Shown here: positions 4,154-12,843 of the stretch, piece by piece
How positions within the stretch are numbered: position 1 is the stretch's first letter
Layout: each line of letters starts with the position of its first letter
From: Desulfobacula sp.
Lineage (GTDB): Bacteria > Desulfobacterota > Desulfobacteria > Desulfobacterales > Desulfobacteraceae
Length of the DNA: 36,465 nucleotides
Assembly (NCBI GenBank): GCA_028280105.1
Contig: JANQML010000378.1
Coordinates: 1 to 36,465, forward strand
Direction: 5' to 3'
Notes under the pieces: model-generated
Told to the model about the DNA's origin: nothing
Database searches by the model: none
Seen by the model: the letters and a program-made list of their open reading frames with translations, nothing else
Program-made: the position numbers and the translations under genes

Positions 4154-5980
4154 ATGGAAAAAAAAAAGAAACTGATCTGGCAGATTTTTCCATCTTTTTT
4201 AATTATTACCCTTGTTTCGATGACAGCGGTTACGCTGTATGCAACCGATTATTTTAAGCGTTTTTTTCTGAATAATTCTGAAAAAGAGCTGACCACCCAA
4301 ACCTTACTGCTGCAGAAAAAGTTTATCCATATTCTGAAATCCGAGCCGGACCGGCTGGATCAGATTGATCCCCAATGCAAAGAGATCGGACAAGAGACAG
4401 GTACGCGTGTCACGGTTATCCTTCCCTCCGGTGTGGTGGTCGGCGATTCGTTCGGTGATATTGATGCCATGGAAAATCATATGGACCGGCCTGAAGTCAG
4501 CGCAGCCTTTAGTGGAGAGAAGGGAATATCCATCCGTTACAGCGCCACACTGGATAAGAATATGATGTATATCGCCCTGCCGGTGATTGACGGCGACACC
4601 ATTCTGGCGGTTGTCAGAACGGCTGTTTCCGTTTCCGCCATAGACAGGGAACTGCGGGAAATCCGGAATAATATTCTCTTTGCCCTTGTATTGACAACCC
4701 TTGCTGCAACCATTGTCAGCTTGTGGGTGACCCGGAGAATCACACGTCCCATTGAGCAGATGAAAAACGGTGCGGCACAATTTGCCGGCGGGAACCTTAA
4801 CACCCGGATGGCGGTTCCTTCATCCGAGGAATTGTCTGAGCTGGCCGTGACCATGAACCGGATGGCTGAAAATATGGATGAAAAGATCAAGGATTTCAAA
4901 AACCGGAGCATGGAGCTGGAGGCTGTCCACAGCAGTATGCAGGAGGGGGTCATCGCCATTGACAGGGATGAAAAAATTATCACTGTCAACTCAGCCGCCG
5001 CACGGATTTTGGATTTTCCGCCCATGAGATTGAAGGATCGATATATTCTCGAAGTCGTTAGAAATGTCGAGTTCCAGTCTTTTATCCAGCGGGCTCTTTC
5101 CACCAATGAACCGGTCGAAGACGATATCATCGTTCAAAAGGAGGAAAGCACCATTCTTAACATTCATTCCACGGCATTGTACGATACCCATAAGCTGAGA
5201 ATGGGAACCCTCATCATCTTTCATGATATCACGCGCATTCGCCGTCTTGAAACCATGCACAAGGACTTTGCCGCCAATGTTTCCCATGAATTAAAAACCC
5301 CGCTGACCGCCATTAAGGGATTTATTGAAACCCTTCAGGAGATGATGTCTTCCAATGATACCAATCAGAGCATCCATTTTTTAAAGATTATTGAAAAGAA
5401 TGTGAACCGGTTGATTAACCTGATTAACGACCTGTTGGTCCTGTCCAGGCTCGAACGTCTGGAAGGGACGGATATCCGGTTTGAGAGGCAGCCGCTGCTC
5501 TCCTTGATCCAGGCCGCGGTTAACACGTGCCAGACCCGTATCCGGGACAAGCAGATGCAGGTGGCCATTGACTGCTCTGAAGATTTGGATGTTATGGTGG
5601 ACACCGTTCTCATGGAGCAGGCCATCATTAACCTTGTGGATAATGCGGTAAAATACTCGCCTGAATCCTCCAAAATTTTTATTGAGGCTGAAAAAAAAGA
5701 TGAAAAAATCGATATCGCCATCCGGGATCAGGGACGGGGGATTGATCAGGATCATCTGCCCAAGATCTTTAACCGGTTTTACCGGGTGGATAAAGCCAGG
5801 ACCCGGAACGAAGGCGGAACCGGCCTCGGGCTTGCCATAGTCAAGCACATCGTCCAGTATCATCAGGGATCGGTCCATGTCCGAAGTGTGAAAAAAGAGG
5901 GCTCGGTTTTTACCATTCGAATCCCGGCAGCCGGATTGATGGCGGCAAACGGTTCAGAGGATACCGGTAAATATGCTTAA
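4154..5980 (+). CDS. phoR: Phosphate-responsive sensor histidine kinase PhoR
   Basis: This is a 608-residue membrane histidine kinase. It shows a first TM segment (about 8-30), an extracytoplasmic sensor region (31-170), a second TM (about 173-192) and a HAMP linker (193-245). A PAS domain (about 252-365) precedes the HisKA domain with phospho-acceptor H378 in FAANVSHELKTPLTAIKG, and the ATPase domain has N493 (N box), DQGRGI (525-530) and GTGLGLAI (555-562). PhoR phosphorylates PhoB when phosphate is limiting. The start ATG 4154 has AAGGAG just inside the end of phoB. The sizeable extracytoplasmic domain resembles the Bacillus-type PhoR rather than the short enterobacterial sensor. The gene is convergent with the next one, with 7 bases between. 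Confidence 0.92.
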   Translation: MEKKKKLIWQIFPSFLIITLVSMTAVTLYATDYFKRFFLNNSEKELTTQTLLLQKKFIHILKSEPDRLDQIDPQCKEIGQETGTRVTVILPSGVVVGDSFGDIDAMENHMDRPEVSAAFSGEKGISIRYSATLDKNMMYIALPVIDGDTILAVVRTAVSVSAIDRELREIRNNILFALVLTTLAATIVSLWVTRRITRPIEQMKNGAAQFAGGNLNTRMAVPSSEELSELAVTMNRMAENMDEKIKDFKNRSMELEAVHSSMQEGVIAIDRDEKIITVNSAAARILDFPPMRLKDRYILEVVRNVEFQSFIQRALSTNEPVEDDIIVQKEESTILNIHSTALYDTHKLRMGTLIIFHDITRIRRLETMHKDFAANVSHELKTPLTAIKGFIETLQEMMSSNDTNQSIHFLKIIEKNVNRLINLINDLLVLSRLERLEGTDIRFERQPLLSLIQAAVNTCQTRIRDKQMQVAIDCSEDLDVMVDTVLMEQAIINLVDNAVKYSPESSKIFIEAEKKDEKIDIAIRDQGRGIDQDHLPKIFNRFYRVDKARTRNEGGTGLGLAIVKHIVQYHQGSVHVRSVKKEGSVFTIRIPAAGLMAANGSEDTGKYA

Positions 5981-9858: not shown

Positions 9859-10221
9859 ATGAAAAAAGAAGATTTGGAATTTTTTAAAAATCTTTTAGAG
9901 GACAGGCTGAATGAGCTGCTCTCCCATGCTGACAATACCGTGACGGGAATGACCAAGCCCAAAGAGAATTTTGCAGACCCCACTGACAGGGCGTCCCATG
10001 AAGCGGAACGAAGCTTTGAGTTGCGGATTCGGGACCGTGAGCATAAATTGATAAAAAAAATTAAAAAAGCCCTGAATCGCATTGATAACGGAACATTTGG
10101 AGTCTGCGAAGCCTGTGAAGAGGATATTTCATTAAATCGGTTGAAAGCCAGACCGGTAACCACCCAGTGTATTGAGTGTAAAACCCGTGAAGAGGATATG
10201 GAGAAATCCCTTGGTATTTAA
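9859..10221 (+). CDS. dksA: DksA/TraR-family zinc-finger transcription factor
   Basis: The 120-residue protein has an N-terminal coiled coil carrying the DPTDRA segment (40-45). This matches the DxxDxA tip motif that DksA inserts into the RNA polymerase secondary channel. A four-cysteine zinc finger follows (C83, C86, C104, C107). DksA works with ppGpp to repress rRNA promoters and activate amino-acid promoters. The length is close to the short DksA forms of deltaproteobacteria, so a DksA-type function is likelier than plasmid TraR. The PHP-RNase III gene starts 19 bases downstream, so cotranscription is likely. Confidence 0.88.
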   Translation: MKKEDLEFFKNLLEDRLNELLSHADNTVTGMTKPKENFADPTDRASHEAERSFELRIRDREHKLIKKIKKALNRIDNGTFGVCEACEEDISLNRLKARPVTTQCIECKTREEDMEKSLGI

Positions 10222-10240
10222 CCGGTGATAGACGATTCTT

Positions 10241-11800
10241 TTGATTGACCTTCACGTACATTCCACTGCATCAGACGGGTCCCTTTCCGTTCCGGAGATT
10301 TTGGCTCTGGCTCAAAAAAACGGCATCAGGGCCCTTTCCATCACCGATCACGATACCATTGACGGTATCAAAGAATTGGTGCTTCAATCCATTAAAACCG
10401 ACATCGATTATATCACAGGCGTTGAAATCTCCTGTGAGCCGCCCAAAGGATTTGAAACCCTGGGAAGTATTCACATGCTCGGGTATGGATTCAGTATTTA
10501 CGATTCAGGATTGAACCACATTCTGGGTAAAGCAAAGACGGCCCGGACCAGCCGCAATCCGAAAATCATTGAAAAACTGAACCGGATCGGATTTGACATC
10601 ACCATGGAACAGGTGGAGTCCAGGTTTGGCGCCCATCAGACCGGGCGGCCGCATATCGCTGAATTCATGAAAGAAAAGGGCTATGTCTCCTCCTTTTCCG
10701 AAGCCTTTGATAAATACCTGGGTAAAAATAAACCCGGTTATGTGGATAAATATAAGGTCTCTTGCCAAAAGGCGATTCAAACCATTCGGGATGCCGGTGG
10801 AATAGCGGTTCTGGCGCATCCCGGACTGTTGAATTTTTCACGGACCGGTCAGGATGAAGAATTGCTCGACACATTGATCGGCTGGGGGCTGGAGGGGCTG
10901 GAAGTTTTTTATTCAGACCACGATGAAAAACGAACCCGATATTATCATGATATGGCGACAAGAAAAAAAATACTGGAAACCGGGGGCTCCGATTTTCACG
11001 GTTCGTTTAATAAAGGGGTCAGCCTCGGGACGGGTAAGGGGAAACTCTATGTTGATTATTCTTTGTATAAAAAAATTGTAAACCGGTTGGATAAGAATAG
11101 TAAAGAGATGGATTTACATATACTGGAAAAAAATATCGGCTATTCTTTCAAGGATCGGTCCTTACTTGAAAATGCCCTGTGCCACCGCTCTTATTTAAAT
11201 GAGAACCCGGATTCATGCCTCACCGACAATGAACGGCTTGAGTTTTTAGGGGATGCCGTGGTCGGGCTCTGTATCGGTCAGGTGCTGATGGAAGCAAGCC
11301 CCCTGAAAAAGGAAGGGGAATTGTCAAAACTCCGGTCCGGTCTGGTAAGCGAGCCCGGGCTGGCCGTCATTGCACGGGCAATTGATCTGGGACGATTCAT
11401 CAAGCTTGGAAAAGGGGAGAGTCTGTCCCGCGGATATGAAAAGAATTCAATCCTCTCCGATACATTTGAAGCCGTGGTAGCGGCCATATACCTGGACTCT
11501 GATTTTAACACGGTCTACGATCTGCTGAATGGTCTTTTTAAATCCTCCCTGGAACAATTGCTGTCAAAAGAAAAGGTGGTGGATTACAAAAGTATGCTCC
11601 AGGAACATGCTCAGGAATCCGGCACCATTATTCCCCAATACCGGGTTCAAAATGAAACCGGGCCGGACCATGATAAAACATTTGAAGTCTGGGTTGAATT
11701 GTTCGACACCCGGGCCAAGGGGCTGGGCCGCACTAAAAAAGCGGCGGAGCAGGATGCCGCTCAAAATGCCCTGATGCTTCTGGGCAAAAAACAATTGTGA
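10241..11800 (+). CDS. PHP-domain phosphoesterase (YciV/RNase AM type) fused to ribonuclease III
   Basis: One uninterrupted 519-residue frame joins two complete enzymes. Residues 1-285 are a PHP phosphoesterase: H5/H7, D12, TDHDTIDG (35-42), E62, H78, LAHPG (191-195) and GGSDFHG (248-254), with the GRPH insertion of the YciV/TrpH subfamily, which includes 5'-3' exoribonuclease and nucleotide phosphatase activities. Residues 290-519 are RNase III: signature NERLEFLGDA (330-339), catalytic E334, D338, D407 and E410, then a dsRNA-binding domain (about 447-516). The start is TTG 10241, since a TAG lies at 10229 in the same frame; the site has only a weak ribosome binding sequence. M290 (ATG 11108) could start a 230-residue free RNase III, but lacks a well-spaced Shine-Dalgarno. 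The last four bases overlap the next start. Confidence 0.9.
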   Translation: MIDLHVHSTASDGSLSVPEILALAQKNGIRALSITDHDTIDGIKELVLQSIKTDIDYITGVEISCEPPKGFETLGSIHMLGYGFSIYDSGLNHILGKAKTARTSRNPKIIEKLNRIGFDITMEQVESRFGAHQTGRPHIAEFMKEKGYVSSFSEAFDKYLGKNKPGYVDKYKVSCQKAIQTIRDAGGIAVLAHPGLLNFSRTGQDEELLDTLIGWGLEGLEVFYSDHDEKRTRYYHDMATRKKILETGGSDFHGSFNKGVSLGTGKGKLYVDYSLYKKIVNRLDKNSKEMDLHILEKNIGYSFKDRSLLENALCHRSYLNENPDSCLTDNERLEFLGDAVVGLCIGQVLMEASPLKKEGELSKLRSGLVSEPGLAVIARAIDLGRFIKLGKGESLSRGYEKNSILSDTFEAVVAAIYLDSDFNTVYDLLNGLFKSSLEQLLSKEKVVDYKSMLQEHAQESGTIIPQYRVQNETGPDHDKTFEVWVELFDTRAKGLGRTKKAAEQDAAQNALMLLGKKQL

Positions 11801-12843
11801 ACAAATCCCTTGTTATCCCGGTTTTTATCCCCCATTCCGGTTGCCCCCACCAATGTGCATTCTGTAACCAATCAATCATCACATCTCAAGCTTCCGGGGT
11901 GCCGGATCAACAGGCCATACACCGGGTGATCGATCAATATCTCAGCTATCAAGGAAACCGGCAACGTGTTGAAATTGCGTTTTTCGGCGGTAATTTTCTG
12001 GGGCTTCCTTCAGATATCATTGAGAGTCTGCTTGAGGGTGTTAAGGGGTATCTGAGGAATGGAAAAATCCATGGCATACGGTTCTCCACCCGTCCGGACA
12101 CCATTACCCGGAGAAAATTAGACCTGATCCGGCCCTATCCGATAACAGTAGTTGAACTGGGGGTCCAATCCATGAACAACCGGGTGTTATCCCGTGTTAA
12201 GAGAGGGCATACGGAAAATGATACCCGACATGCGGTCCGGATGCTGAAAGAATACAGGTATTCCGTGGGAGTGCAGGTCATGACAGGACTTCCGGGTGAT
12301 ACCCCGGTCTCTTTAATGGAGAGTACCCGAAAGGTGGCGGCTCTAGAGCCTGAGGTCGCCCGGATTTATCCCCTGCTGGTGCTGAAAGGAAGTCTGCTGG
12401 AGCAGTGGTACCGGGCCGGTGAATATACCCCCCCGGACCTGGATGAGAGTATTTCGCTTTGTAAAGAGATGCTCCATATCTTTCATTCACACCAGGTAAG
12501 GGTGATCCGGGTGGGGTTACAGACCGGTGAGTCCATGGCGGATAAATCCGCTGTTCTGTCAGGGCCGTGGCATCCGGCATTCGGCCACCTTGTTTTTTCC
12601 CGGATGATGCGTGACAAAACCATGGGCGAAATTGATGCGGTTTTATCGGAATACCAAAAAAATTCGGATTCAATTATCCCGCAATCCGTCTCCCTGGTGG
12701 TCCACTCCCGGTCCGAATCCCGTTTGAGAGGGGACAGGAACGAGAACATCAGGCACCTGGAAATAAGATATCCCCGTATTGACTTTCGCATTTTAAAAGA
12801 TGACGCTGTTCCCGTTGACGGGGTTAAGGTTCGGGCCGGTTAA
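11797..12843 (+). CDS. Radical SAM protein (Elp3/coproporphyrinogen-oxidase-like class, no HAT domain)
   Basis: The 348-residue protein carries the [4Fe-4S] motif CPHQCAFC (C16, C20, C23), followed by a GGN segment (FFGGNF) and an Elp3/MiaB-like barrel with STRPD and ELGVQSM motifs. It is an Elp3-like radical SAM core without the acetyltransferase domain; the substrate is unknown. The GTG start overlaps the stop of the PHP-RNase III gene in a GTGA, so the two are translationally coupled. That hints at a role linked to RNA, such as modification, which is an inference. It ends 23 bases before the convergent argP gene. Confidence 0.85.
   Translation: MNKSLVIPVFIPHSGCPHQCAFCNQSIITSQASGVPDQQAIHRVIDQYLSYQGNRQRVEIAFFGGNFLGLPSDIIESLLEGVKGYLRNGKIHGIRFSTRPDTITRRKLDLIRPYPITVVELGVQSMNNRVLSRVKRGHTENDTRHAVRMLKEYRYSVGVQVMTGLPGDTPVSLMESTRKVAALEPEVARIYPLLVLKGSLLEQWYRAGEYTPPDLDESISLCKEMLHIFHSHQVRVIRVGLQTGESMADKSAVLSGPWHPAFGHLVFSRMMRDKTMGEIDAVLSEYQKNSDSIIPQSVSLVVHSRSESRLRGDRNENIRHLEIRYPRIDFRILKDDAVPVDGVKVRAG

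Follow-up and report, generated by a model that had tools for sequence, protein, structure and literature searches.

Does a single open frame of a Desulfobacula genome join a PHP phosphoesterase to a complete RNase III, and, if so, what might hold two such enzymes together in one chain? The question is raised by a gene within the window (the whole stretch of DNA that was analysed, 36,465 nucleotides), where an initial annotation had read the two enzymes as one in-frame fusion and had suggested a role in rRNA maturation. To our knowledge, the enzymes that trim RNase III-made 5′ ends outside the well-studied model bacteria are poorly known, and a PHP–RNase III fusion was not found described in the open-licence literature searched.

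A PHP enzyme and a complete RNase III in one frame

Positions 10241-11800 on the forward strand form a single open frame of 519 codons, which begins with TTG and has no internal stop; the nearest in-frame stop on its 5′ side is the TAG at 10229-10231. The features of the locus are as follows.

9859..10221, forward strand: dksA, the upstream neighbour (TIGR02420, 143.5 bits vs a cut-off of 115.5; synteny)
10241..11800, forward strand: fused PHP-RNase III gene, 519 aa (open reading frame, Pfam, NCBIfam; full-length frame in 76/86 family genomes)
10241..11035, forward strand: PHP phosphoesterase half, RNase AM-like, residues 1-265
11036..11122, forward strand: connection, residues 266-294, with the PHP C-terminal helix (273-288) and then the first RNase III helix (292-299) (AlphaFold2 model; G265-F303 spacing)
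11108..11110, forward strand: internal ATG (Met290), possible but non-conserved start of a free RNase III (alignment, junction start-codon scan)
11123..11524, forward strand: RNase III catalytic domain, residues 295-428 (PF14622/PF00636, TIGR02191; E334, D338, D407, E410)
11585..11773, forward strand: double-stranded RNA binding domain (dsRBD), residues 449-511 (PF00035)
11797..12843, forward strand: radical SAM (Elp3-like) protein, with a 4-base overlap with the fused gene (PF04055/PF16199; synteny)

Pfam places PHP at residues 3-139 of the protein, Ribonucleas_3_3 at 305-428 and dsrm at 449-511, all above their gathering scores (50.4 bits vs a cut-off of 23 for the dsRBD, PF00035), while the RNase III model TIGR02191 spans residues 295-512 (232.6 bits; cut-off, 166.25). 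Frame, Pfam and TIGR02191 thus agree, and with the conservation in relatives they bear out the reading of the gene as a PHP enzyme, of the YciV/RNase AM superfamily, that is fused in frame to a complete RNase III. The catalytic domain, the dsRBD and the four acidic residues are all common to bacterial RNase III (rnc; TIGR02191), and what sets the fused protein apart is an N-terminal PHP enzyme of 265 residues. No second match to the RNase III half occurs in its own genome, so that the fused copy is the only RNase III match there.

Distribution in the family

The fused protein occurs as one full-length frame in 76 of the 86 genomes of the window's family, representing 12 of its 14 genera (in five of the genomes counted, the match came as two pieces of one frame, which were confirmed at the locus level). 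Among the remaining ten, G018, G044, G045, G079 and G010 have partial copies, which in G044, G045 and for one of the G079 pieces start at base 1-3 of a contig; in G066, G072, G077 and G084 the best match is only at the level of a paralogue; and a single genome, G085, has its RNase III as a separate protein that lacks the PHP half. A separate RNase III was not seen in the 76 fusion genomes among the matches listed, which reach down to E ~2e-18. It had been proposed to look for other genomes with both enzymes in one protein and to inspect the junction for a missed stop or frameshift: the first is answered by these 76 genomes together with members of other families, and for the second, the same uninterrupted frame in these 76 genomes excludes a local sequencing error as the cause of the fusion. 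Viral carriage was considered as well, and none of the 20 viral_contigs stretches that matched a pattern encodes a relative (the patterns were derived from the window protein alone and cover close relatives only).

The PHP half resembles RNase AM but is distinct from it

Excerpts of PMC9410882 give H13, D20, H45, E72, H83, H198, D255 and H257 as the metal ligands of E. coli RNase AM. All eight align with residues of the window PHP, namely H5, D12, H37, E62, H78, H193, D251 and H253, and the metal-binding motifs are therefore complete, as the initial annotation had it. H7 aligns with H15 of RNase AM, which we take to be a ligand from the PHP HxH motif. These eight ligands and H7 are invariant in all 115 class PHPs examined (73 fused, window included, and 42 adjacent to rnc). 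The same excerpts describe a 5′-phosphate pocket formed by R107, R110 and R141, a stacking residue F161, and an Arg201 that touches the active-site sulfate (PMC9410882). The pocket and stacking residues, R102, R105, R136 and F156 in the window, are again invariant in 115/115, and at the position of Arg201 the window has Leu196, with Arg in none of the 115. A wider set of 44 rows gave a similar picture: R107, R110 and R141 are present throughout, except that the PHP paralogue of the window genome is without R107; F161 is kept except in that paralogue and in one row with Tyr; and, apart from RNase AM, 9etk and CV1693, just two rows, both Bryobacterales, have Arg at the position of Arg201.

The window PHP scores 161 bits with the RNaseRnm equivalog NF047791, below its cut-off of 375 (E. 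coli control, 505.9), and 180.3 bits with the CV1693-type equivalog NF041577, below its cut-off of 400. The class PHPs fall outside the starred clade that unites RNase AM, 9etk and CV1693 in a quick tree of 44 rows with 26 open forks. RNase AM proper was thus ruled out as the identity of the PHP half by the HMM cut-off, the change of Arg201 to Leu and the clade. The designation “RNase AM/YciV type” can be retained for superfamily, metal ligands and 5′-phosphate pocket, but not in the narrower sense, as both equivalog cut-offs, Arg201 and the clade speak against it. Judged by these sequence comparisons, the PHP half is an RNase AM-like enzyme within a broader family, distinct from RNase AM itself. 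Its one paralogue in the window genome is 30% identical and has no equivalents of RNase AM R107 and F161, which makes the fused PHP the RNase AM-like member of the two.

Metal ligands and 5′-phosphate pocket are shared with the RNase AM enzymes of E. coli (rnm/yciV, 7ug9) and V. cholerae (9etk), which differ from the fused PHP in having Arg201 rather than Leu, whereas the latter misses the equivalog cut-off and lies outside the RNase AM clade; moreover, rnm of E. coli K-12 adjoins yciO and not rnc, to which the fused PHP is joined. CV1693, a 3′,5′-nucleotide bisphosphate phosphatase (2yb1), has the fold and metal ligands in common with the fused PHP but is free-standing, and the fused PHP misses the corresponding 400-bit cut-off and differs at the Arg201 position. 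A third relative, BAD_1165 of Bifidobacterium adolescentis (3e0f/3o0f), is also a free-standing PHP, recorded as a putative phosphoesterase. RNase AM degrades 5′-monophosphate RNA by a mechanism which, in the excerpts of PMC9410882, is said to be common with CV1693. At five loci of one genus (L067-L071, genus g3, Desulfamplus-type) the fused frames are 563-591 residues long and the PHP match is interrupted near residue 200-206, which suggests an insertion within the PHP domain.

The RNase III half and the connection

E334, D338, D407 and E410 had been named as the catalytic residues of the RNase III half. The alignment confirms all four at these positions, and they are invariant in 73/73 fused proteins, window included. 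When the adjacent genes are added, E334, D338 and E410 are invariant in 115/115, and Asp at the position of D407 is found in 73/73 fused and 29/42 adjacent proteins. The other 13 of the 42 non-fused class rnc genes (among L057, L059, L080-L119) have Asn or Gly at this position, and across phyla (alignment A3) the D407 column lies outside the invariant or nearly invariant columns. We infer that the RNase III half would act as a homodimer that cleaves double-stranded RNA. Values of dN/dS were 0.06-0.24 for the PHP half (18 of 19 pairs, those with a finite nonzero value) and 0.04-0.23 for the RNase III half (16 of 19 pairs, by the same restriction), and by this measure both halves are under purifying selection.

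An AlphaFold2 model based on a 32-row alignment (mean pLDDT 91.0, pTM 0.74, so that the relative placement of the domains is not fixed by the model) has the C-terminal helix of the PHP part (273-288) followed directly by an RNase III helix (292-299). The invariant residues G265 and F303 are 36-38 residues apart in 25/27 family proteins measured, and 34-47 apart in 12 fused proteins from other families. By VIA-align, the PHP part of the model resembles 3e0f, 2yb1 and a pair of RNase AM structures, and its C-terminal part resembles the RNase III structures 2a11, 7r97 and 2nug; none of the 50 entries listed combines PHP and RNase III by title.

Gene neighbourhood and recurrent joining

The wider survey used 92 stretches taken around PHP or rnc matches, which were chosen from match lists and are not a random sample. 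Wherever an in-class region carries a query-like PHP, rnc is either fused to it or lies directly downstream on the same strand (86/86 regions from 85 genomes, two regions repeating loci already counted). Fused loci number 56 in the window's family (f1) and a further 17 in eight other families, a count made without the duplicate window loci L001 and L002, and there are 42 adjacent php-rnc loci plus five from a later set, php being directly upstream of rnc in the rest of the class. There are adjacent relatives in which 0-66 bases separate php and rnc, with the stop in the same frame; this set was picked for in-frame matches. The initial annotation had regarded separate adjacent genes with the same flanks as evidence that would tell against a fusion. 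Such pairs do occur in other families of the class, where they show the origin of the fusion and do not refute it.

The flanks are conserved likewise. The dksA gene is upstream in 78 of 79 in-class PHP regions, the exception stopping at a contig end, and the radical SAM gene is downstream in 72 of 79, with several exceptions at contig ends. Six rnc loci from outside the class have the same radical SAM gene downstream of rnc and php is absent there, so the association of this Elp3-like gene with rnc extends beyond the class.

A class-level search returned kin that, as far as listed, all belong to the same order. A search of 335 genomes of this order left two without a match and a few with weak matches, so that the php-rnc pair may not be universal even there. 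Among the matches listed for 351 genomes that share only the phylum, which are ordered by E-value with joined ones ranking at the top, there was no joined match. Among 592 loci of a named collection, the 80 best were taken with flanks of up to 4 kb, and 77 of these contained only one of php and rnc; of the other three, two are fused (Desulfamplus and Desulfatibacillum) and one is adjacent (Desulfatitalea). According to the NCBI taxonomy, Desulfamplus belongs to the Desulfobacteraceae and Desulfatibacillum to the Desulfatibacillaceae, both within the Desulfobacterales; the window's family would accordingly be the Desulfobacteraceae.

On a quick tree (99 rows, 516 columns, 30 open forks), the label “fused” changes 11 times, at least three of the changes being forced by well supported branches, although such changes cannot separate gain from loss. 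The fusion of the window's family is one clade (SH-aLRT 100), and four fused rows of family f16 lie at the base of the tree. In this group of sulfate-reducing bacteria, PHP and RNase III were apparently joined on more than one occasion, and the simplest history suggested by these data would be that php entered the neighbourhood of rnc within the class and that repeated joining followed. Recurrent joining in turn suggests that both enzymes act together on RNA.

The PHP half has probably also been lost. In G085, a member of the window's family (L058:2591-4760), dksA, a free-standing rnc and the radical SAM gene lie in a row, with flanks as in the fused loci, and rnc has its own GTG start with an AAGGAG motif 5′ of it. 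The G085 RNase III is nested among the fused proteins of the family, the branches above it having SH-aLRT values of 54-84, and the only PHP listed for this genome, which is 88% complete, is of the paralogue type. A probable loss of this kind implies that the PHP half is dispensable.

rRNA substrates and other 5′ nucleases

RNase III cleavage leaves 5′-monophosphate ends. In a complete genome with the fusion (G014, the one genome in which the rRNA flanks were folded, as the Rfam LSU search in G055 gave broken 23S matches only), the 23S flanks form a duplex of -62.1 kcal/mol, compared to a mean of -25.5 (sd 4.0, minimum -37.1) for shuffled sequences. The duplex of the 16S flanks (-64.5) lies within the range reached by shuffles (mean -47.9, minimum -69.8). 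The 23S leader-trailer helix of G014 (L219:2560-2724, 5698-5790) begins directly at the mature 23S ends, and its 16S-23S spacer has 162 bases, with a tRNA not found within it. In E. coli, the corresponding 23S helix is processed by RNase III, RNase T and RNase AM, as stated in an excerpt of PMC10250234.

A protein above the TIGR00649 cut-off was found in 58 of the 59 genomes searched, the window genome included, and in 9 of 14 controls. TIGR00649 is presumably the RNase J family, the canonical 5′-3′ exonuclease. On this account the fused PHP was rejected as the sole possible 5′ exonuclease: with such a protein in the same genome, rRNA 5′ trimming is not shown to depend on the fused protein, and the main rRNA 5′ nuclease may be an enzyme other than the PHP half.

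Possible functions of the fused protein

The fusion is real, conserved and recurrent, and it is built from two known kinds of enzyme. Of the possible explanations for it, we favour, with about even confidence, a bifunctional RNA-processing enzyme that would tie an endonucleolytic cut to the trimming or clearance of the 5′ product. The RNase III half, as a homodimer, would cut double-stranded RNA such as the leader-trailer helices of pre-rRNA and other duplexes, leaving 5′-monophosphate ends, and the two PHP domains would be held near the cut by a short helical connection of almost constant length. From there they may remove nucleotides 5′ to 3′ from the ends that RNase III has made or, alternatively, hydrolyse the resulting short 5′-phosphorylated fragments and 3′,5′-bisphosphates, and the fusion would supply the cutting activity and the trimming or clearance activity in equal numbers. 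This is the simplest reading in which both conserved active sites have a use and which accounts for linkage as well as recurrence. Coupling of cutting and trimming is plausible and open to test, and clearance of short 5′-phosphorylated fragments or 3′,5′-bisphosphates after RNase III would be equally compatible with the pocket.

More tentatively, and with confidence somewhat short of even, we propose a dedicated cut-and-trim ribonuclease, in which RNase III is combined with a 5′-phosphate-dependent PHP exonuclease acting on fresh RNase III ends; it would represent a class-wide machine of the Desulfobacteria for rRNA and dsRNA processing that goes back to an ancient php-rnc pair, the members of which were fused on several occasions. 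If this is true, PHP enzymes of the wider family that share this pocket in other phyla would likewise act in RNA 5′ processing. Recurrent fusion within one class connects a PHP enzyme with RNase III through linkage of the genes as well as through joining of the proteins. This offers a direct hypothesis for a PHP family with members in many phyla, and it supplies one protein in which a coupling of endo- and exonucleolytic processing could be tested.

The main rival, a process without functional coupling, is possible but less likely. Two independent housekeeping enzymes would then share one chain, the PHP half being a general CV1693-like bisphosphate phosphatase or short-oligonucleotide hydrolase (acting, for example, on pAp) that was linked to rnc through its operon position, and the stop between the genes would have been lost by chance, repeatedly, given that they were neighbours and in some cases shared a frame. 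The short same-frame intervals of the in-frame set speak for such a process; PHPs with the same pocket occur apart from rnc in many phyla, one family member (G085) does without the PHP half, and the joining could be harmless drift. However, php is linked to rnc at every in-class region taken and unlinked outside the class, and 12 genera of one family carry the fusion with a connection whose length hardly varies, neither of which is predicted by chance.

It is improbable that the PHP half is an accessory which recognises the 5′ phosphate or removes a 5′ cap, and so steers or regulates RNase III according to the 5′ state of the RNA. Such a role would suit the invariant 5′-phosphate pocket, the fact that Arg201 of RNase AM is not kept, and the deFADding activity that excerpts of PMC9410882 report for RNase AM, but metal ligands that are invariant in 115/115 class PHPs are expected of a catalyst rather than of a mere binder.

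One product or two

The suggestion that one gene makes two products, the full-length protein and a free RNase III started at ATG 11108, fared poorly, and we regard it as very improbable. The in-frame ATG does exist, at residue 290 and immediately 5′ of the RNase III domain, but the window alone has Met in this column among the 73 aligned fused sequences, and 16 of the 73 fused genes have no ATG, GTG or TTG at all near the junction (-25 to +8 codons of the RNase III domain). An ATG near the junction is present in 33/73 fused genes vs 44/47 adjacent rnc genes, for which the scan ran from the ORF start and thus covered a longer region, and each of the 46 adjacent genes listed has a possible start codon. 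Predicted SD pairing, which is similar enough in the two sets to lend the suggestion some support, separates them poorly: the median for the best candidate is -2.8 kcal/mol in fused vs -3.8 kcal/mol in adjacent genes, and values of -5 kcal/mol or below occur in 21/73 and 18/47, respectively. At ATG 11108 the predicted pairing is weak (-3.1 kcal/mol). A single product of the fused gene, with an estimated mass of about 58 kDa for its 519 residues, is more likely, even if the window species could use ATG 11108 as a start.

That the fusion is an assembly or sequencing artefact, with a missed stop or frameshift, has a negligible chance: the window assembly consists of 413 contigs (98% complete) with 6.5% contamination, but the frame is uninterrupted in 75 other genomes of the family, single-contig ones included, and at 17 loci of other families. 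One family genome (G004) has the fused gene in two distinct full-length copies, on contigs C339 and C222, which could reflect a mixed bin or a duplication.
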